Below are positions 54,801-64,000 of a DNA stretch of 64,000 bases, piece after piece. Every line of letters starts with the position of its first letter. Within the stretch, counting starts at the first letter, position 1. Location: NCBI GenBank assembly GCA_021298015.1, contig JAJTGY010000010.1:90800-154799 (forward strand), read 5' to 3'. The stretch comes from Flammeovirgaceae bacterium. Lineage in GTDB: Bacteria; Bacteroidota; Bacteroidia; Cytophagales; Cyclobacteriaceae. The notes beneath the pieces were generated by a model. The model did not search any database, had not been told where the DNA came from, and saw only the letters and a list, made by a program, of their open reading frames with translations. Position numbers and translations under genes: made by a program.

Positions 54801-56175
54801 GGGCTATCCCGGTAGTCAATCCTGTAAATACGTTGGACATCTGGTACGCGCCTCCGTCTATCCGATATTGTTTTGCACCGGTGCCCCCGCTGGCCGTGAC
54901 GGTCACCTGGCCATTGTTCAATGTGTTACACAACGTGGATAGACCAGAAGCCGATACGATAGATGGCTCAGAAACGCTGACCGAATTTGTTGTAAGCACG
55001 GTATATGTTGCCGGGGTAGTGCAGTCATCACGTATGGTCACTTGATAACTGCCTGCGCCAACATCAAACGTTGGAGTCCCTTGAAAAGGCCCTCCATTGA
55101 GGCTATACTGATATGGCGAACGACCTCCAGAAACTCCGCTAACAGTTACCTGCCCATCTGTTGAACCCAGACAACTAACCTGTGAACCATTATAGTTGCT
55201 GGTAACAGATACATTTGCAACCAGCTGAGTGCGGGGACCCGGTGAGACGATAAAGGGTGTAAACTCAACTGCTCCACAATTACCTAAATTACTCTTGACA
55301 ATTAAGTAGTATTGGATACCTGCCATCAGTTGTCCGTTTGTTTTTAACGAGCTTAAGGGAAGTAAAGGATCGTTTGAGTCCCGTATCTCAAAGCTAAAAA
55401 CCTCACCTGTATCTGCTTCGCGGCTGTAAGAAACATCCGTCACGGAACCATCGTTGCCACCTAGACATGTGGGAGCAGATGTACTAATGCTTGATGCAAC
55501 AACTTGATCCGGATAAAATCGATAAGGGCTCGTTGGAACGCTTGGTGATCCACCGCATGGGACAGAATAACGAAACACTATGGGAGTATCGTAAAATGAT
55601 GCGTATCCAGTCCCAAAGATATCTTGCATACTGACGTTTATTGAAGACGAATTGGGGTTACCAGGTACAGAAAGCCAAACCCCAGTAGAAATACTATACT
55701 CCCAATCATAAGATGAATATACGGAAATACCCCTGAGATTAAGTACTTCACTAGAACAATAGTCTCCTGCTGGAGTAGTCCCCATTATAGGTGTAGGTAA
55801 CGGTTCCCAGCTTAGCGTCAAGTCAGTTGTAGCACAAGAACCGATTGTATAATTATTGGAAAAGCAATCTTGATTTGGAAGATTTATGGAATAGGAAAAA
55901 AGGCAGTTTTGATTTGGAAAGTCCGGAGGTATTTTGTCATCAAAAACACGACAACGGGAAGTGATATCTATCCTAATCGGCCTTCCATTTGAGTTCTTAA
56001 CCACATTGTAATTTACATAAGACTCGTAAATAGGTGCAGTTTCACCGGGGCATCCACTCAATGCACCTGAAGAAAACTCGTTCACAGAGTAGGCTATTTG
56101 AGCGTTTGCATCAAACGCTATTAAAGAACTACCAAGTAATACCAAGCCCATTAAAAATAAAACCCTTGCTTTCAT
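51838..56175 (-). CDS. Large secreted protein with about 11 SprB-type repeats and T9SS-type C-terminal domain
   Basis: Repeats such as VTCFGASNGSVNLTVTGGTSPYLYSWSNGATTEDLISRPPGLYSVTVTDANGC; C-terminus AFPVPTKDRISGMIEL...LPRGVYFLIFESGREAKVIRVAVI. Confidence 0.88.
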   Translation of the reverse strand: MKARVLFLMGLVLLGSSLIAFDANAQIAYSVNEFSSGALSGCPGETAPIYESYVNYNVVKNSNGRPIRIDITSRCRVFDDKIPPDFPNQNCLFSYSINLPNQDCFSNNYTIGSCATTDLTLSWEPLPTPIMGTTPAGDYCSSEVLNLRGISVYSSYDWEYSISTGVWLSVPGNPNSSSINVSMQDIFGTGYASFYDTPIVFRYSVPCGGSPSVPTSPYRFYPDQVVASSISTSAPTCLGGNDGSVTDVSYSREADTGEVFSFEIRDSNDPLLPLSSLKTNGQLMAGIQYYLIVKSNLGNCGAVEFTPFIVSPGPRTQLVANVSVTSNYNGSQVSCLGSTDGQVTVSGVSGGRSPYQYSLNGGPFQGTPTFDVGAGSYQVTIRDDCTTPATYTVLTTNSVSVSEPSIVSASGLSTLCNTLNNGQVTVTASGGTGAKQYRIDGGAYQMSNVFTGLTTGIAHAIQVRDINLCESSVVNVFVPAPVIAGTATVTQPTCFGQTGMITVNGSGGGTGVLQYSLDGSIYQASNVFLGLGSGNYTVRVRDINLCVALAASVTVTVPPAISVTRTLVEPSCFGLANGSITITASDGVAPFEYSINNGTNYFTTNVFTGLSSGIYTLRARGANGCESSAQVINLTQPSPVGGTIATLPTFSCFSPGNGGTINLTPSGGTPPFSYSWRDNTTNAVIATTEDASFTLGSLLSNTYTVTITDSRGCIGSRTTPVIIQPAQLVSTAIKTDVTCFGASNGSVNLTVTGGTSPYLYSWSNGATTEDLISRPPGLYSVTVTDANGCTTNTSATIIQPAQLTLSQGTSSHVLCNGQANGSVTLNATGGTGVYEYSRDGITWQPSSTISSLNATSHTLRVRDQNLCINQIIVTITQPPVLTASVGSIQGATCGQSNGSASSLANGGTGTYSFAWRNGLNQVVSTAPTLVNVPGGTYSVTVTDQNGCTDFEDAAIPSPDGPQATINSTTPTRCSDSNDGRATITVSQGQAPYTIVWNNGETGLNPVALRPGIGINIVTITDATGCITSQVVNVPSPPTLEATPPVIQQATCPAGTNGSIQTLGAGGTAPYTYAWNTGATTSLLNNIGAGTYSLTIRDANNCTITESITLSDKPAITVQTVSEVAPACAGRSDGSISVNAMGGNGTFSYAWNTGATGSTLASIGAGTYTVTATDVLGCTSQRTFVFADPPPLSLDLGPDRKICVGGILTIASPENAASYVWSSSNGFSSTLKQVTLTQAGDYTLRIVNANGCLAEDTFTLTTATDLLSADFLMIPQAEAGDTIIVIDISWPVPEGIVWTLPSEASVIERTPDYVTMVFDEPGIYEVILTASLAQCQDDYRGTIDIRKRAKKSGGRLSTQSEPLIRSVTAFPVPTKDRISGMIELSQESAVTIRLVSPERNLVIRMIEGFGRSVYEFDFEVSNLPRGVYFLIFESGREAKVIRVAVI

Positions 56176-56234
56176 AGCAAAATTTGCAATTTGATTCACA
56201 AGTCTATCTTCATTATCAAAAATTCACTTCTTAT

Positions 56235-58262
56235 TCAATATTTCACACTTATCTCCAAAGACTTTCCGACACTAGCTCCGTTTTGATTAACTACCAATAT
56301 ATGATACTTATAACTACTCTCTATTTTAACATTGCTATCCATAAACTGCCTCGAAGAATTTATAGTTTTAATTGTAAATGGCTGATCATCACCTTCTGAT
56401 CGGTAAATTATTGTTTTAACCGCACCCGGAATCTGATCCCATTCTAGCAGTATCTGTTTTTTATCCCGATCAACGGTTGCTTTAAGTAGCACCTGCGCGG
56501 ATTGTTTAACCCTTTCTTTTACCGTCAACTGAATGGTGGATCCTTCAGAAATATTTCCGGAACGATCATAGCTTTTCACGCTATACAATTGCGAGCCGAG
56601 CACTCCAGTAGAATCGACAAAGTGAAAAATGGAATCAGGCAGATTGGCAAGCTTCGATAAGTTCGTCCCGCCTAATGTTCTTCGTTCGATGAGATACCCT
56701 GCTGCATCCTTACTAGAACTAGGAAACCACGATAACTCCACTCCATGTTCCGTGTTCTTTACATTCTTGATCGAAGGAGGAACAGGAGGTATTTTATCTG
56801 GCAAAACAACAGTCAAGATTTCTGAGAATATGGAGGCATTAAACCGATTGTCAAGAGCTTTTAAACGATAGTAAATCCGACCGTCAAGAGATTGGGTTTT
56901 AAGGGAGTCGCGATACTGAGAAATGGACGATAACTCCTTTGAAATCTTACTGAACTCAGCATTTTGAAAATTGGATCGATATACTTCATATCCTTGCAAA
57001 TCATTTTCTGAATTAGCTCCCCATTGAAGGGTAATCACACCAGATGATGACACCTCATACCTGAGACCTTGAGGTGCTAGCGGAGGAACACTATCATACA
57101 ATTGAAGCAAATGCGGAAAGGTAGCGGTGCTGTCGCGCTCACCCATCAGTTTAATCCTATAATAGGCTGTAGCCAATGGTTTCTTATCTCTCCACTCGGT
57201 TTCGTTTACTGACATCCGATGCACGGTGAAATATGGACCCGATTCGCGGCTTCCTCGTTCTATTTTAACAGATCTTATTTGCTTTTTGTCTCCTGAAATC
57301 TGCCAGCGCAACCAGGCCTCGCTCTCCTTTGTTGGCTGAACGGAAAAACTGCTAACGATAGCTTTTAGAGCAGGAATACTTATGCCTTTCGCTTCCGCAG
57401 AAGCCGGACTTATTTCCCCAAACGCTGTAATACCTCGTATCCTATAGGCTACTTCACTTCCAGTAGAACTCAATGAATCGATATAACGGAAATAAGGGTC
57501 TTCTTCATTACCTGGATTTAAAAAAGGAGCATTGTTAACTTTTTTAAAATCTGGCTCCCCAGCCTGTTTCCGCTCAATTATATAAGATGTAAACGTCTTC
57601 TCCACTGCCGTCTTTGGCCACGTAAGCATTACTTGTTTATCCCCAAACTGCGCCCTTAGCTCAGCAGGTGGCAACACTTGAATGGTGTCAGCCAAGCTGA
57701 TATAAAATGTAGCAGGCACGGAGTTCGCACTATCGGCATTGGCTACGTGAATCCGGTACAGATATTTTTCATCAGGTTTGACCTGGGCATCCACCCATCC
57801 CAGTCCTGAGAGCAATGCGGTTTCAAAAGAGTGATCAGCAGCGAGCAAGGCAAATGAAAATCGCTGTTCCAATTGCCTTGACCTATTCACGACATCAAAG
57901 GGTGTCGCTTGGAGTGGTCCTACCTCAAAATCGGAACCATAAAGGGCCTCGGCTGCAATGGCGACATAATCATTGTTCTCGGAAGGACGCTCCCACTCGA
58001 CAAGCGGTCGAGGTTTTAGCGCTGGTGATAGAATTATCTTTGAAGGTGGTCGGAGTATTTGTTTCCCGCGGGTAATCGTATACCGCTCGATCACATATCC
58101 CGATTTATTAGCTGTTTGCCATTGGTTCGGATCGGTTGGTGCCCATCGCAATAAAATAGAGTTTTTCTTTGCTTTAGCTAATAGTAATACATCAGATGTC
58201 TGCCCCCACGCAAAGTATGGGAGAAGGAAACAGGACAAAGTTATGAATCGTATTATCTTCAC
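56235..58262 (-). CDS. Secreted fibronectin type III domain protein
   Basis: Signal peptide; repeated FN3-like patterns (PPLAPQGLRYEVSSSGVITLQWGANSENDLQGYEVYRS; PPVPPSIKNVKNTEHGVELSWFPSSSKDAAGYLIERR). Confidence 0.85.
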   Translation of the reverse strand: MKIIRFITLSCFLLPYFAWGQTSDVLLLAKAKKNSILLRWAPTDPNQWQTANKSGYVIERYTITRGKQILRPPSKIILSPALKPRPLVEWERPSENNDYVAIAAEALYGSDFEVGPLQATPFDVVNRSRQLEQRFSFALLAADHSFETALLSGLGWVDAQVKPDEKYLYRIHVANADSANSVPATFYISLADTIQVLPPAELRAQFGDKQVMLTWPKTAVEKTFTSYIIERKQAGEPDFKKVNNAPFLNPGNEEDPYFRYIDSLSSTGSEVAYRIRGITAFGEISPASAEAKGISIPALKAIVSSFSVQPTKESEAWLRWQISGDKKQIRSVKIERGSRESGPYFTVHRMSVNETEWRDKKPLATAYYRIKLMGERDSTATFPHLLQLYDSVPPLAPQGLRYEVSSSGVITLQWGANSENDLQGYEVYRSNFQNAEFSKISKELSSISQYRDSLKTQSLDGRIYYRLKALDNRFNASIFSEILTVVLPDKIPPVPPSIKNVKNTEHGVELSWFPSSSKDAAGYLIERRTLGGTNLSKLANLPDSIFHFVDSTGVLGSQLYSVKSYDRSGNISEGSTIQLTVKERVKQSAQVLLKATVDRDKKQILLEWDQIPGAVKTIIYRSEGDDQPFTIKTINSSRQFMDSNVKIESSYKYHILVVNQNGASVGKSLEISVKY

Positions 58263-61200
58263 TCACCAATCGGGTTAAAAAACACCAAGTCTTTTCCGGA
58301 AATAGGCTCTGCCTTTCCGGGTACAAACTTCTTTACTTTTATCTTATAATTACCTTTCAACATCTGTGGAAAAGCACTCCAGATAATATTCTCTGTCCGG
58401 GGCGTAATAATTCCTTGCGCCAGGTAATGATTCACCACCTTGCTTTGAATTTCCAGGAAGTCGTAGTAGTAGTAATATGCTAAATCATAGGCAAAAAAGG
58501 ATTGCAACTCCATCGTTGGAGACACCGGACTGGTTTGACTTAATTCCAGACCATCCGTGGCCTGAAATATATGCACCGCACCAATGGGGGGAAGACCCAA
58601 AGTGGCCAACGTTCGGTTACCGATCGTGATTCGATTATCAATCGGGTAACCTTCATAAACCAACGGATAAATCCGGGAATTATAATATTGATTATCGGAA
58701 AGGTCAGCTTCTATCTTTAGGAGGGGTTTGTTTCCGGTAAAAGATGTTCCTATCAACTCTGCTTTGTCAAAACCTTCTTGTGTGGAATAATTTGTCTTTA
58801 AAAACGAAACACGCCACGCCACCCGTAATCCATTAAGGGTTGGTTCAAGATTCAATGCATTAATCTTTCCTGATAGTGTTGAGTAGCGACTGGATCGGAA
58901 ATACGAACTAAAAATGGCCTTTTCTTCCAGATCTTTAATCGTACCCTCCGCTCTTTTAGATTTCACTTCGGTATCCAGCGTTTCACCATTGGTCTGAACT
59001 TTTGTGTTTACCTCGCTCACATTTCGGTCTACCGCACCAACCTGTGTTTTGGGTACATTCACCAGCTCAAACGCATAAACTTCTCCATTTTTGAGATTAG
59101 CAGATGGGATCGTAAAACTTACTCGACCGGAGGCATAACTAAATCCAAAATTTGATTTATTACCAGATACATCCGTAAATCTTCCCGTTTGTGTCCAATC
59201 AGCAGATGACTCAAATAGGTAAGGTTGTCCTTGCTTAAGCTTGATATACCCTTCGGTTGTTTCTCCTTTATAAAAATTCAACTGCCCAACCACAGGATAG
59301 GAATAATCAACATTTGATAAGGGAATATGATCAGGAGCATCACCTGTTGAAAATTTAGCTACGGACTTTTCGACAATCACTTGTCCATTTTCAACTACTT
59401 TTACCCAGGAGCCGGATTTCAACTCCTCAAACTGGACTTCTACAGAAGCCACTACTTCTTTGCGCGGAGGTAATACATCAAACGGATTGATGGCCAACAC
59501 ATCCTGTTCTTCATTCCACTCTTGTGTACCTGCCAATGGCTTTCCCTCGCTCGTAAGCCTATAAGACTGAAGTTGCATACGGAAAGATCGTTTTACGCCA
59601 TTATCATCTGTTATCTCAAAAACCTTGTTTACAGGCATATTGAACACAGCCTGTGGTCGGGTAAAGACACTAATACTTTTTTCCTGATCACCGGGAGTCA
59701 ATTGAGAAATTACTTTTAAGTCATCAGCCACACTATCCTCCTTCTTCACCATCTCACACTTCTTACCCAGCGTCACTTCAAATCTGCAATTTCCTCTCAC
59801 CAATCCGCCCAATACACTAAAATAGCCACCCACGGTGCCCTGTACCCAAATAGGGTTAGGCAACTGGGCTTGCAAAATCGCAGCCGCTCCTATACTCAGT
59901 ATTTCAATACTTCTCCGCTTTCCAAATACTTTCACCCGTATGCCTACAGCCCCTTCAAAATACGCATAGGCCTGCCCATTGGCATACCAACCATTGATCC
60001 CAATTCTTCTGCCCGTATTGCTACAGTAGGTCTCACCATAATTTTTAATCATGATGTCAAATCCAAGACCGGCTTCAAACTTGGCATAGAAGATCAAGAA
60101 GGTAAGATCGCCTGTGCTGATGCTAAAGGCGGAACCGAACGCCACACCCGCCCCATTGCCAATCGCATTCAGGTCTTTCATGTAATCAAGATCCTTACCG
60201 CCCAGGATACGAGACACAGCCTCTGGAGGTGGCGGACTGCCGGGTATCTTAGTGCCCACCATAAAGTAACTTCCCGATTGCGCGCTGACGGGCCCTACTC
60301 CTACTTTTAATCCGATCCGATCTTCCGGAGTACCGACATATACATACCATTCGCCTGGCGCAAAGTGCATCACGGCCCACCCGGCACGTCCTCCGGCTCC
60401 TACGCCTTGGATAACACCACCAGCCACATTCACAAAAGCATCAAAGTTTCCGTGGAGCACCCGATTCTCAAAATCGTAATCAATAAACGCCCGGAAGGTG
60501 ATCCCCTCCTTTCCTTCAATCTTTCCATGAATGTCTTCGATGGCCGCCTTATCGTCTTTGATGGTGTTGATCAACGTCTCTGCTCCTTTCGGTACCTTGC
60601 TTTCTATTTCCTTCATTTTCTGCGTCATCTTAGCCGTGGCGGCTGTCAACTTCCCGGAGATAGCAGCGTCTATTCCAGGAGTGAGCATGTTTCCGTTTCC
60701 AAGTAAACTCATATAACGAATGCCTCCTCCCTGAAAGAAGGAAATCTCAAACGTAACATCGGCATTAAACACCTTGTCGTTACCAGCCGAGGCAATTACC
60801 ATGGTGGCTTTTATGCCCAAACCCGCTTTTGAATCCGGAATGTAAAAAGCGCCCGAGGCAGTCTTTCCTAACGGACTGGATGAACTCTTGTCCATTTTCA
60901 TTTTATAGAAAGCACCCCCGCCAAACCCTACGGCATTCACACCCGGAAACATTAAAATGCCTGGCGAAAACTCAGCCAACGCATCGGCATACCAATAGCG
61001 GTCACCATTCACATTTCCAAAGATAGCCGAAGCGCGTGCCTTAAAATTGAGCTTGGTCATGGCCATTTCCACAGATCCATTAAATCCATTTCCATAAACT
61101 GCATCATCGCGGTAGAACGCAAGCGAGCCTTTCAACGAATAGGCCGCGCCCGTCATGTCGACTTCAATGGAGCTAACATCTACTCGTTTAAAACGCCAGC

Positions 61201-62887
61201 GCTGGCTGCCGTCTTTCTGATACATCTCCGCTACCAGCGAAAGCCCCGCATCCACAGAAAAAGAATTTGCCCCGGCATCATTGCCTGTGAGATTCAGAAT
61301 TAAATCAAAGTCGAGGGCGGTCTCGGTGTCAGACAATGAGCGCATGCCGATGTTGTTGATGCTGATGGGGAACTGCGCCATCTTTTGTTGCAAGGCTTCG
61401 GAGCCAAACGAAAAGTTGCCTACTTTGATATAAGGCCTTACAGTCTGGATTTCCAGATTCTCAAAGGAGATATCGGCTAACTCCACGCCTTTGCCTTTTT
61501 CCCCCTTGTTGCTCAACCTGGCCTGAATGTTCATGTTGCCATGCAACACTGCCTTGGGCAAGAACTTACCATCCGCTACCCGGATTTCAATGCGCGAAGC
61601 TTCATAGATTTCCACTTTGCTGGTCTGCCATAAGTTAAACTGTATATCCTGGGTAGATACCACATTAAAGAAATACTGGTCGTTCTCTTGCATGGTGGCC
61701 GTATACTTAAATGGCGTTTGTTCATCCGCCAACGGTACCACAATTTTTCCTTTCAGTCCCGCCTGCTGAATCTGATTAGCCATCAACGACACGGCAATGG
61801 AATCCAGCGAGAATGCCCAGCCGCTCATGTCTCCGTTGTTAAGCGGAATCAGGTTTTTACCTTCGAATAATCCGGATACACCTTGATTGTCAATAATCAT
61901 ATTGTAAGCATTCAGCGAGGTGCGTACGTTGTCCTTATTTTTAAATTGCTGAGGTAACCGCACCGACATCTGTCGCATATAAAACCCACGCCACAGATTG
62001 GTATTATCCGGTAACATTTGGTTGCTGGTATATCCTTGCGGGAACTCGACAGCCGGGGCATTGCGCACATCGCTAAAATCAAATACAGCCTGTTCTACCG
62101 TAAAGCCAAAGCCATTCAAGCCCTTCACCTGAAAGTTGGGCAGACTTAGTTGAACAATCAGGTCGTTCCAGTTGCTCAATACGGTTTTAAAAGAAGATGT
62201 TACGCGGCCTTCCGGTTGGATGGTCCCATTCAGGTTTTCTGGAATCAACAGATCGCGTGAGAAGATGACATTGGCATCCAGCGCCATTTCTTTGAATCCA
62301 TCGCAGTCGATGGTAACATAGGTGCCCGGTACTACTTCCGTCCCACCTTTGATGACCAGTTGAATTTTATCACCATTAAAATTGATTCCATAATCACCAA
62401 TCAATTGCAGCGTGGCATCGCCCACAATTCCGCCCGCGTTGGAGAGCTTAATGTTTCTGCCCATGAACGAAAGTTTCTTTCCGTTTTGCGGAATTTCAAA
62501 TTCCATCACCACATCCAACTCCGCGTGGGTGGGCTGCAACCGCACCGCATAAATCACCACATCATAGCTTAACCCCCCAACGGCTTTGGGAATACCCACC
62601 GGTAACTCAAATTTGGAATTCGCATCAATCGTTCTGATAAAATTTTGCGTCTCCTTCACTTTCGCCACCATCGATCGGACAAATGCAATTTTCTGCTCCT
62701 GCTCACCATTAATCATCTCATCAAAGAACATATCCTCTGATAAGATATCAGAAACTTCCGGAGAAAATTCGTAGGCTACTGGCATCTGAAATACCGAATC
62801 CAGCCGATGCACCACCAGCGTGCTATCCGAGGGACCGGCTGCGGCCAGGAAGGGAAGCAGGGATAATATGAGGAGTAAGTATTTCAT
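58259..62887 (-). CDS. Very large exported protein of unknown function (1542 aa)
   Basis: Signal peptide MKYLLLILSLLPFLAAAG; single 4.6-kb ORF overlapping the FN3 gene by 4 bp; no motif recognised. Confidence 0.8.
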   Translation of the reverse strand: MKYLLLILSLLPFLAAAGPSDSTLVVHRLDSVFQMPVAYEFSPEVSDILSEDMFFDEMINGEQEQKIAFVRSMVAKVKETQNFIRTIDANSKFELPVGIPKAVGGLSYDVVIYAVRLQPTHAELDVVMEFEIPQNGKKLSFMGRNIKLSNAGGIVGDATLQLIGDYGINFNGDKIQLVIKGGTEVVPGTYVTIDCDGFKEMALDANVIFSRDLLIPENLNGTIQPEGRVTSSFKTVLSNWNDLIVQLSLPNFQVKGLNGFGFTVEQAVFDFSDVRNAPAVEFPQGYTSNQMLPDNTNLWRGFYMRQMSVRLPQQFKNKDNVRTSLNAYNMIIDNQGVSGLFEGKNLIPLNNGDMSGWAFSLDSIAVSLMANQIQQAGLKGKIVVPLADEQTPFKYTATMQENDQYFFNVVSTQDIQFNLWQTSKVEIYEASRIEIRVADGKFLPKAVLHGNMNIQARLSNKGEKGKGVELADISFENLEIQTVRPYIKVGNFSFGSEALQQKMAQFPISINNIGMRSLSDTETALDFDLILNLTGNDAGANSFSVDAGLSLVAEMYQKDGSQRWRFKRVDVSSIEVDMTGAAYSLKGSLAFYRDDAVYGNGFNGSVEMAMTKLNFKARASAIFGNVNGDRYWYADALAEFSPGILMFPGVNAVGFGGGAFYKMKMDKSSSSPLGKTASGAFYIPDSKAGLGIKATMVIASAGNDKVFNADVTFEISFFQGGGIRYMSLLGNGNMLTPGIDAAISGKLTAATAKMTQKMKEIESKVPKGAETLINTIKDDKAAIEDIHGKIEGKEGITFRAFIDYDFENRVLHGNFDAFVNVAGGVIQGVGAGGRAGWAVMHFAPGEWYVYVGTPEDRIGLKVGVGPVSAQSGSYFMVGTKIPGSPPPPEAVSRILGGKDLDYMKDLNAIGNGAGVAFGSAFSISTGDLTFLIFYAKFEAGLGFDIMIKNYGETYCSNTGRRIGINGWYANGQAYAYFEGAVGIRVKVFGKRRSIEILSIGAAAILQAQLPNPIWVQGTVGGYFSVLGGLVRGNCRFEVTLGKKCEMVKKEDSVADDLKVISQLTPGDQEKSISVFTRPQAVFNMPVNKVFEITDDNGVKRSFRMQLQSYRLTSEGKPLAGTQEWNEEQDVLAINPFDVLPPRKEVVASVEVQFEELKSGSWVKVVENGQVIVEKSVAKFSTGDAPDHIPLSNVDYSYPVVGQLNFYKGETTEGYIKLKQGQPYLFESSADWTQTGRFTDVSGNKSNFGFSYASGRVSFTIPSANLKNGEVYAFELVNVPKTQVGAVDRNVSEVNTKVQTNGETLDTEVKSKRAEGTIKDLEEKAIFSSYFRSSRYSTLSGKINALNLEPTLNGLRVAWRVSFLKTNYSTQEGFDKAELIGTSFTGNKPLLKIEADLSDNQYYNSRIYPLVYEGYPIDNRITIGNRTLATLGLPPIGAVHIFQATDGLELSQTSPVSPTMELQSFFAYDLAYYYYYDFLEIQSKVVNHYLAQGIITPRTENIIWSAFPQMLKGNYKIKVKKFVPGKAEPISGKDLVFFNPIGE

Positions 62888-62896
62888 TCCATTATT

Positions 62897-63000
62897 TTAG
62901 GTATTAGGTATTAGGTATTAGGTATTAGGGGTTAGGTATTAGGTATTAGGTATTAGGTATTAGGGGTTGGGTATTGGGTATTAGGTATTAGGGGTTAGGT
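62897..63000. repeat. Heptanucleotide tandem array, 15 in-phase units of TTAGGTA/TTAGGGG/TTGGGTA
   Basis: Direct reading: four TTAGGTA, TTAGGGG, four TTAGGTA, TTAGGGG, two TTGGGTA, TTAGGTA, TTAGGGG, TTAGGT. Confidence 0.97.
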
Positions 63001-63397
63001 CGTTGGTACTGTAATGAGCTTCAGGTTCACTGACTCGATTTTCCATCGACTGGATATAGCCGTTAATCATTCGCCCAATCTCATCGATTTTGCGGATAAG
63101 CTCTGCACGTGTTTCGGTCGCAATCAGGTTTCGGCTGGCTGCTTTGGTGAGCCATGTTTTGGTTTCAAATGCAGAACCACGGGCGTAAAATGTAAAATTT
63201 CGCACATCTTTGGAATGATATCGGCCAAGCCCCTCGGATAAGTTAGCCGCGATGGAATCACAAGAGCGAACCAACTGCTTTCCGATCGTATCCTTTTCGA
63301 AGTATGACCACGTGGCAACAATCGACCAAACAGATTCACCCAGCTCCATCGCTTTGTTATACGTTTTAAAATCTTCCAACCCCTGAATCATATACAT
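62981..63397 (-). CDS. Four-helix-bundle protein of the 23S rRNA intervening-sequence (S23/IVP) family
   Basis: MIQGLEDFKTYNKAMELGESVWSIVATWSYFEKDTIGKQLVRSCDSIAANLSEGLGRYHSKDVRNFTFYARGSAFETKTWLTKAASR; likely ATG at 63397 or 63391. Confidence 0.93.
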   Translation of the reverse strand: MYMIQGLEDFKTYNKAMELGESVWSIVATWSYFEKDTIGKQLVRSCDSIAANLSEGLGRYHSKDVRNFTFYARGSAFETKTWLTKAASRNLIATETRAELIRKIDEIGRMINGYIQSMENRVSEPEAHYSTNDLTPNT

Positions 63398-63421
63398 CAA
63401 ATTAATTCCCAAACTTCTTTT

Positions 63422-63469
63422 CTAATACCTAACACCTAATGCCTAAGTCCCTAACCCCTAATACCTAGT
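63422..63469. repeat. Degenerate heptamer array, inverted relative to 62897-63000
   Basis: ctaatacctaacacctaatgcctaagtccctaacccctaatacctagta; minus strand reads TATTAGG GGTTAGG GACTTAGG CATTAGG TGTTAGG TATTAGA. Confidence 0.9.
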
Positions 63470-64000
63470 ATTTGTCATCCAATATCTTAAATTCTTTGTT
63501 CACTTGAAACCACTCTCTCACTTGTGTCAGCGCAGCAGGATAGTCTGATGTGACCACATCTCCACTATCACTTAACTTCAACGGATAGTTTCCGATAGCG
63601 GGAGCCAGCATCTCCATCACACGATAAGCGCACGGTATGCGCGAAGGCCGCTCGGGGTCTGCCGACTCACAATTCTTTGCATCACTATTAAGCGTTTCCA
63701 GCAAATAGCTGAAAGCTTCCCTCCTTCTCGTATACACCAAATCCGGGAACACTTCATACACCAACGCATCACTCACGGGCATGCGCTTCACTCGGTTCAT
63801 TACATCATTAATGGCTTGCTCATCACCCATGCGACTGAGCGCCAGCAGGGCGGCCCAGCGGTCTTTACGACCAGCCGCACCATCTTGCGACAAAGCAAAG
63901 AGCTCGTTTTTTGCTTTTTGTACGTTCAGATAACCAAGGAGCCGGATAAGGGTATTCATATTGCCCGACTTCCGTTGGAAGTAGGCATACAAGGAATCTT
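63465..64000 (-). CDS. HEAT-repeat-like protein, partial (N-terminus beyond window)
   Basis: Frame remains open to the window edge; helical repeat-like NVQKAKNELFALSQDGAAGRKDRWAALLALSRMGDEQAINDVMNR. Confidence 0.6.
   Translation of the reverse strand, partial: DSLYAYFQRKSGNMNTLIRLLGYLNVQKAKNELFALSQDGAAGRKDRWAALLALSRMGDEQAINDVMNRVKRMPVSDALVYEVFPDLVYTRRREAFSYLLETLNSDAKNCESADPERPSRIPCAYRVMEMLAPAIGNYPLKLSDSGDVVTSDYPAALTQVREWFQVNKEFKILDDKY

Follow-up and report, generated by a model that had tools for sequence, protein, structure and literature searches.

Intervening sequences (IVSs) of 23S rRNA were described over 25 years ago; those of Coxiella and Leptospira carry an S23 open reading frame (ORF). 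The S23/IVP proteins are widespread and structurally solved, without known function. The Coxiella IVS has complementary ends, which form a 28-bp stem, and an S23 ORF in the sense orientation, with three tandem GACAGAT heptamers before the ORF; RNase III cuts the stem and the IVS is excised, and S23 is probably not translated, its ORF being thought to be decaying (PMC4990558). Heptamer repeats with the unit TAACTGA are found in Beggiatoaceae, Cyanobacteria, and Bacteroidetes as direct intergenic repeats near start codons (PMC4679880), in a paper from which S23 is absent. Here we analyze a stretch of 64,000 nucleotides from a Flammeovirgaceae bacterium, hereafter the window, at one end of which an S23 gene lies between two heptamer arrays.

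Structure of the Window Locus

Sequence reading, TRF, and a pattern search all recover the arrangement that was originally predicted from the nucleotide sequence, an S23/IVP gene bracketed by two heptamer arrays of opposite orientation (table 1). Read along the minus strand, the HEAT-like ORF is followed by the decayed array, the S23 ORF, the 15-unit array, and the 1542-aa ORF. The heptamers of the left array are in phase and without breaks, their order being four TTAGGTA, TTAGGGG, four TTAGGTA, TTAGGGG, two TTGGGTA, TTAGGTA, TTAGGGG, and TTAGGTC; TRF also finds that this array repeats every 35 bp (2.9 copies, 94% matches), the higher-order pattern of the original prediction. The right array, likewise recognized there as decayed and opposite in orientation, is of the reverse-complement type, with a period of 7, 77% matches, and small indels. 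With up to two mismatches the pattern TTAGGTATTAGGTA occurs 16 times in the window, where 0.18 occurrences would be expected by chance, and 15 of the 16 fall within the two arrays, and a whole-genome search places TAGGnnTTAGGnnTTAGG at this locus only. The coordinates also confirm that the S23 and HEAT-like genes both run into repeat DNA: the terminus of the S23 ORF, GACCTAACCCCTAATACCTAA (DLTPNT*), consists of it, and the stop of the HEAT-like ORF (TAC TAG, 63465–63467) lies inside the right array.

Table 1. Features of the S23 Element and Its Neighbors, in Window Coordinates
Feature	Position	Strand	Remarks
S23/IVP four-helix-bundle ORF	62981..63397	-	ATG start, TTG alternative 63412; stop 62981–62983 in repeat DNA
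3' arm, downstream of S23: 15 phased heptamers	62897..63001	-	CCTAATA on S23 coding strand; predicted to pair with 5' arm in folded transcript
5' arm, upstream of S23: decayed heptamers	63422..63470	-	AGGTATT-type on S23 coding strand
Upstream neighbor: HEAT-like ORF	63465..63998	-	cut by window/contig end; stop codon inside 5' arm
Downstream neighbor: 1542-aa ORF	58259..62887	-	ATG 9 bp past 3' arm
Whole element as transcribed (predicted): 5' arm, S23 ORF, 3' arm	62890..63475	-	about 575 nt

Profile searches place the S23 protein in PF05635 (E 1.3e-26) and TIGR02436 (E 2.6e-27), and solved structures among its relatives include 2GSC and 2RLD; translation likely starts at the ATG at 63397 (or 63391) rather than at the TTG. 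The HEAT-like ORF has a weak match to HEAT_2 (21.5 bits, below the cut-off), and the 1542-aa ORF has no match in Pfam or NCBIfam. The latter ORF is conserved beside the HEAT-like gene across the genus. Two other accounts of the feature were rejected, namely an assembly artefact at the contig end, as an independent genome of the same genus (G062, locus L061) has gene and arrays, and a conserved repeat sequence, as TTAGG arrays are confined to one genomic locus and units vary by locus.

The comparison with G062 also bears on the insertion of the element. In this genome the HEAT-like protein is 96% identical and the S23 protein, found at the same place, 88% identical, with the arrays re-arranged. 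Three further relatives (G012, G063, and G057; 62–65% identical) have the flanking genes 32–38 bp apart, without arrays or S23. Given these three empty sites and the one occupied sister species, we conclude that the window element was inserted, and that it came as a unit between adjacent genes, as originally proposed. At the same junction G034 has an array hairpin of related heptamers, without S23. Neither a target duplication nor a TIR beyond the arrays was found at the window site. Between the window S23 and its G062 orthologue dN/dS is 0.12, that is, the protein is under purifying selection, as is S23 in several of the pairs compared (for the nearest G000/G007 pairs, too few changes stand behind the ratios). 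The selection seen in the window pair argues that S23 is presumably made and used at this locus.

Inverted Arrays Are General at Stand-Alone S23 Genes

S23 genes occur in 57 of the 59 genomes of our genus sample, nine of them in the genome of the window, and are flanked by inverted arrays of varying 7-bp or 8-bp units. Many of the genomes analyzed are metagenome assemblies. The arms are weak or short in about 40% of the same-genus genes, including at least three of these nine. Scored by a simple local alignment, the two arms of a gene match each other better than they match the arms of other genes: over 46 same-genus genes the diagonal mean is 30.6 and the off-diagonal mean 18.4 (0 of 10,000 permutations). 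The same holds (34.4 vs. 19.7) for 77 other loci, assigned by their record titles to Bacteroidota, Desulfobacterota, Planctomycetota, SAR324, Patescibacteria, Alphaproteobacteria, Omnitrophota, Chloroflexi, Nitrospirota, and archaea. An arm score of at least 28 is reached by 56% of the S23 genes of the genus (45 loci) and by 68% of those of other phyla (77 loci), whereas of control positions drawn at random from these loci only 1.2% and 0.65%, respectively, reach it. As the 80-locus sample was seeded with a narrow S23 alignment, it is weighted toward one part of the S23 family. The typical inward unit is AGnnnnn, the unit itself being locus-specific, and the arms are biased in base composition, the 5' arm containing little C (9%) and the 3' arm little G.

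By this sequence comparison, TTAGGTA is a local sequence and the inverted-array layout is general for stand-alone S23 genes. The expectation that TTAGGTA arrays would stand beside other S23 genes is therefore right about the arrays, which follow a general rule, and wrong about the heptamer, which differs at each locus. No Rfam family reached the gathering threshold in 12 S23 loci, which rules out a known structured RNA for these. In a literature covered in part, with few subscription journals, we found no earlier account of free-standing S23 genes flanked by inverted heptamer arrays.

The matching of own arms persists where the site is held constant. At two junctions, represented by 18 and 16 loci from several genera, units differ by genus but an arm still finds its best match in its own partner (0 of 5000 permutations at either junction). 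Such co-divergence is what would be expected if the arms had to pair, or if both arms were replaced jointly. The closest pairs (window/G062 and L021/L046) give no signal of compensatory change, own and cross scores being equal, and small same-site sets give no co-divergence signal either way.

Placement in Operons

The elements sit in housekeeping operons, at murE-mraY, murD-ftsW, sufB-sufC, grpE-dnaJ, and metH, all gene names being our reading of the flanking sequences. S23 and both its neighbors, the latter called by longest open frame, are co-directional at 43 of 44 loci of the genus, against a background of 47.6% taken from crude gene triples of a related genome (p 3e-13). Outside the genus most exceptions to co-direction come from Desulfobacterota. 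The upstream stop codon and the S23 start are separated by a median of 41 bases. One S23 gene (L025, G000:C32) is, together with its 3' heptamer arm, in frame with a NUDIX hydrolase, in an open frame of 339 residues.

Single junctions are found in several states. Among five species, murE-mraY is empty in two, with overlapping stop and start, has S23 in two, and has an array hairpin only in one. G000 and G007 differ in the element at this site despite flanks that are 98% identical; the G007 element is also present in G005, so the difference may reflect either gain or loss. A target duplication was sought at murE-mraY, and none was convincing. At the metH junction 10 of 30 loci contain S23, and G048 keeps a relic with only the arms and the last codons, for the C-terminus, of S23. 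Most of the genomes sampled in the genus encode MetH as two separate genes (loci L174–L203), and the gap between these is a frequent S23 site with relics of lost elements.

The S23 lineages at one junction differ between genera. In our S23 trees, quick ones built on few columns, sequences group mostly by site, and the two commonest junctions need six and seven changes, at least two of which in each case are forced by well-supported branches; the same junction has therefore been colonized more than once.

A Probable Free-Standing Relative of the rRNA IVS

We consider that the window feature is probably a complete, free-standing relative of the 23S rRNA IVS, residing in mRNA in the sense orientation, with pairing arms and S23 in the loop. 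The predicted RNA fold of the element has −187.9 kcal/mol and a z-score of −6.95 against dinucleotide shuffles, with the arms paired together, and that of the G062 element is similar (z −6.28), although good folding follows from the inverted repeat itself, and the z-score alone is no proof of RNA function. The 5' arm, S23 ORF, and 3' arm were inserted as one unit between co-directional genes. We infer that the element is co-transcribed with its operon, in whose transcript the arms would pair into a long imperfect stem. By analogy with rRNA IVSs this stem would probably be cut by RNase III, and such cleavage would separate the flanking messages, so that an insertion where a stop codon meets the next start would do almost no harm. 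The S23 protein, by binding either this stem or the RNA that encodes it, would help the element to spread.

Several observations speak against this reading. The window S23 is not basic (calculated pI 6.1), and the Coxiella S23 is itself probably untranslated (PMC4990558). To these add the large share of same-genus genes with weak or short arms and, in the Bacteroidota elements, the lack of a consistent target duplication. The orientation of Desulfobacterota copies with target duplications, described below, is mixed, as for a DNA transposon, so that selection alone may account for the sense bias of the other elements.

Transposition in Desulfobacterota

The S23 elements of Desulfobacterota have TIRs of the form GGWTCATCTCC...GGAGAAGAACC and 8-bp AT-rich target duplications. 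Of 28 rows, three of which are the same element on the other strand (about 25 distinct elements), 21 agree in at least seven of the eight positions, against 9 of 756 mismatched pairs. The copies that bear such duplications point in either direction. Single genomes contain up to 31 S23 matches (G071), many internally deleted. Taken together, TIRs, target duplications, and internally deleted copies indicate on sequence grounds that this branch has transposed. The mobility suggested for the window element thus holds for the Desulfobacterota; in the window's own branch it takes the form of presence and absence. In G071 (L234–L253) many copies retain only S23 residues 1–42 or 77–122, elements being about 310–385 bp long. 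Upstream of S23 in four other loci (L101, L103, L104, and L111), a leader some 110 nt long is conserved (GGATCATCTCCCGATTAGTTGTAGTTAATT...GTGTGATCCC); it resembles a structured RNA but has no match in Rfam.

These copies raise the question of a miniature DNA transposon, with the arrays as DNA ends, a host transposase acting in trans (ISL3-like in Desulfobacterota), S23 as a DNA-binding accessory or a passenger, and the sense bias resulting from selection. It would account for the TIRs, duplications, deletions, and mixed orientation just described, and an ISL3 remnant from one such genome has GGTTCTTCACC at its end, a partial match by which the ends of these copies may be of ISL3 type. However, these partial Desulfobacterota genomes yielded no ISL3 copy that shares the TIR and no ISL3 transposase whose ends match, and the Bacteroidota elements, without TIR beyond the arrays or clear duplication, are in sense at 43 of 44 loci. 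We therefore regard such a transposon as a rather unlikely origin of the window element.

Array Families Within Operons

Heptamer arrays also occur apart from S23, within the same operons. In a survey of 476 kb, comprising S23 loci and the window, arrays situated elsewhere in a locus resembled the S23 arms of that locus more than those of other loci (mean similarity 23.9 vs. 13.3), and array-only hairpins often share their unit with the S23 element of the same locus. Three such hairpins (L020 6555–6629, L045 6590–6662, and L055 6597–6670) occupy another gap of the S23 operon and are built of that element's heptamer; in the orthologous operon of G011 the unit differs, and does so likewise at both places. 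Genome-wide frequency, which rests on 400 kb of G007, is low outside the S23 operon. Arrays away from S23 are thus rare in this related genome, as the original prediction implied, but the array-only hairpins are exceptions to it.

This likeness within loci would also fit a domesticated operon regulator, in which S23 binds its own heptamer in mRNA, the array-only hairpins of the operon being further sites and the unit an operon-specific address. Purifying selection on several S23 pairs, and the retention of S23 at some junctions across many species, point in the same direction. Nevertheless, the presence of S23 is patchy among close species and orthologous operons exist without the element, and we think such a role quite improbable. 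A passive history, in which slippage-prone repeats came first and S23 landed there or is an unrelated neighbor, could explain arrays without S23 but is very improbable indeed, as arrays are rare in the 400 kb and yet flank the majority of S23 genes across many phyla, complementary in a way specific to the locus, and slippage does not give a gene a pair of inverted arms that match.

Returning to the free-standing relative of the rRNA IVS, we put forward a wider proposal, as a tentative one that we hold somewhat doubtful. Free-standing S23 might be the sole ORF of a pan-prokaryotic family of mRNA IVSs, spreading at the RNA level into stop/start junctions, each with its own heptamer code shared with the array-only hairpins of the same operon; the rRNA IVSs would then be a special case that hit rRNA. 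Most stand-alone S23 copies in any case gain a common anatomy, tied to rRNA IVSs, and an orphan protein family, at least one branch of which transposes, becomes a class of mobile elements that are open to testing and probably processed as RNA. Their position in housekeeping operons has consequences for operon expression and for the annotation of split genes.

Comparison with Known Systems

The TAACTGA repeats differ from the window arrays in being one fixed heptamer genome-wide and direct, not inverted. The DGR accessory protein Avd is a four-helix-bundle relative of S23, but by the bAvd profile (PF22296) the window S23 is not a member of the Avd family (20.2 bits, cut-off 40), and no DGR reverse transcriptase or template/variable repeats were seen among the ORFs at 55000–64000. 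With MITEs the Desulfobacterota copies share small size, inverted ends, the 8-bp AT-rich duplication, and internally deleted copies, and the S23 elements at the window site, murE-mraY, and metH show the presence and absence at orthologous sites typical of MITEs; unlike MITEs, S23 elements carry a conserved ORF, and the window element has neither a TIR beyond the arrays nor a duplication.

The closest likeness is to the 23S rRNA IVS, whose layout, upstream heptamers included, was absent from the original prediction, as was the sense placement in operons. Unlike the rRNA IVS, the window element lies between two protein-coding ORFs, outside any rRNA helix, and is bounded at either end by inverted arrays, the unit of which varies from locus to locus; purifying selection acts on its S23, in contrast to the presumably decaying ORF of Coxiella. 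Because rRNA location, a defining feature, is lacking, the window element is a variant of the IVS and not an rRNA IVS proper. With it the element shares a protein of the S23 family (PF05635), complementary ends able to fold into a stem with a sense ORF in its loop, and tandem heptamers directly upstream of that ORF.
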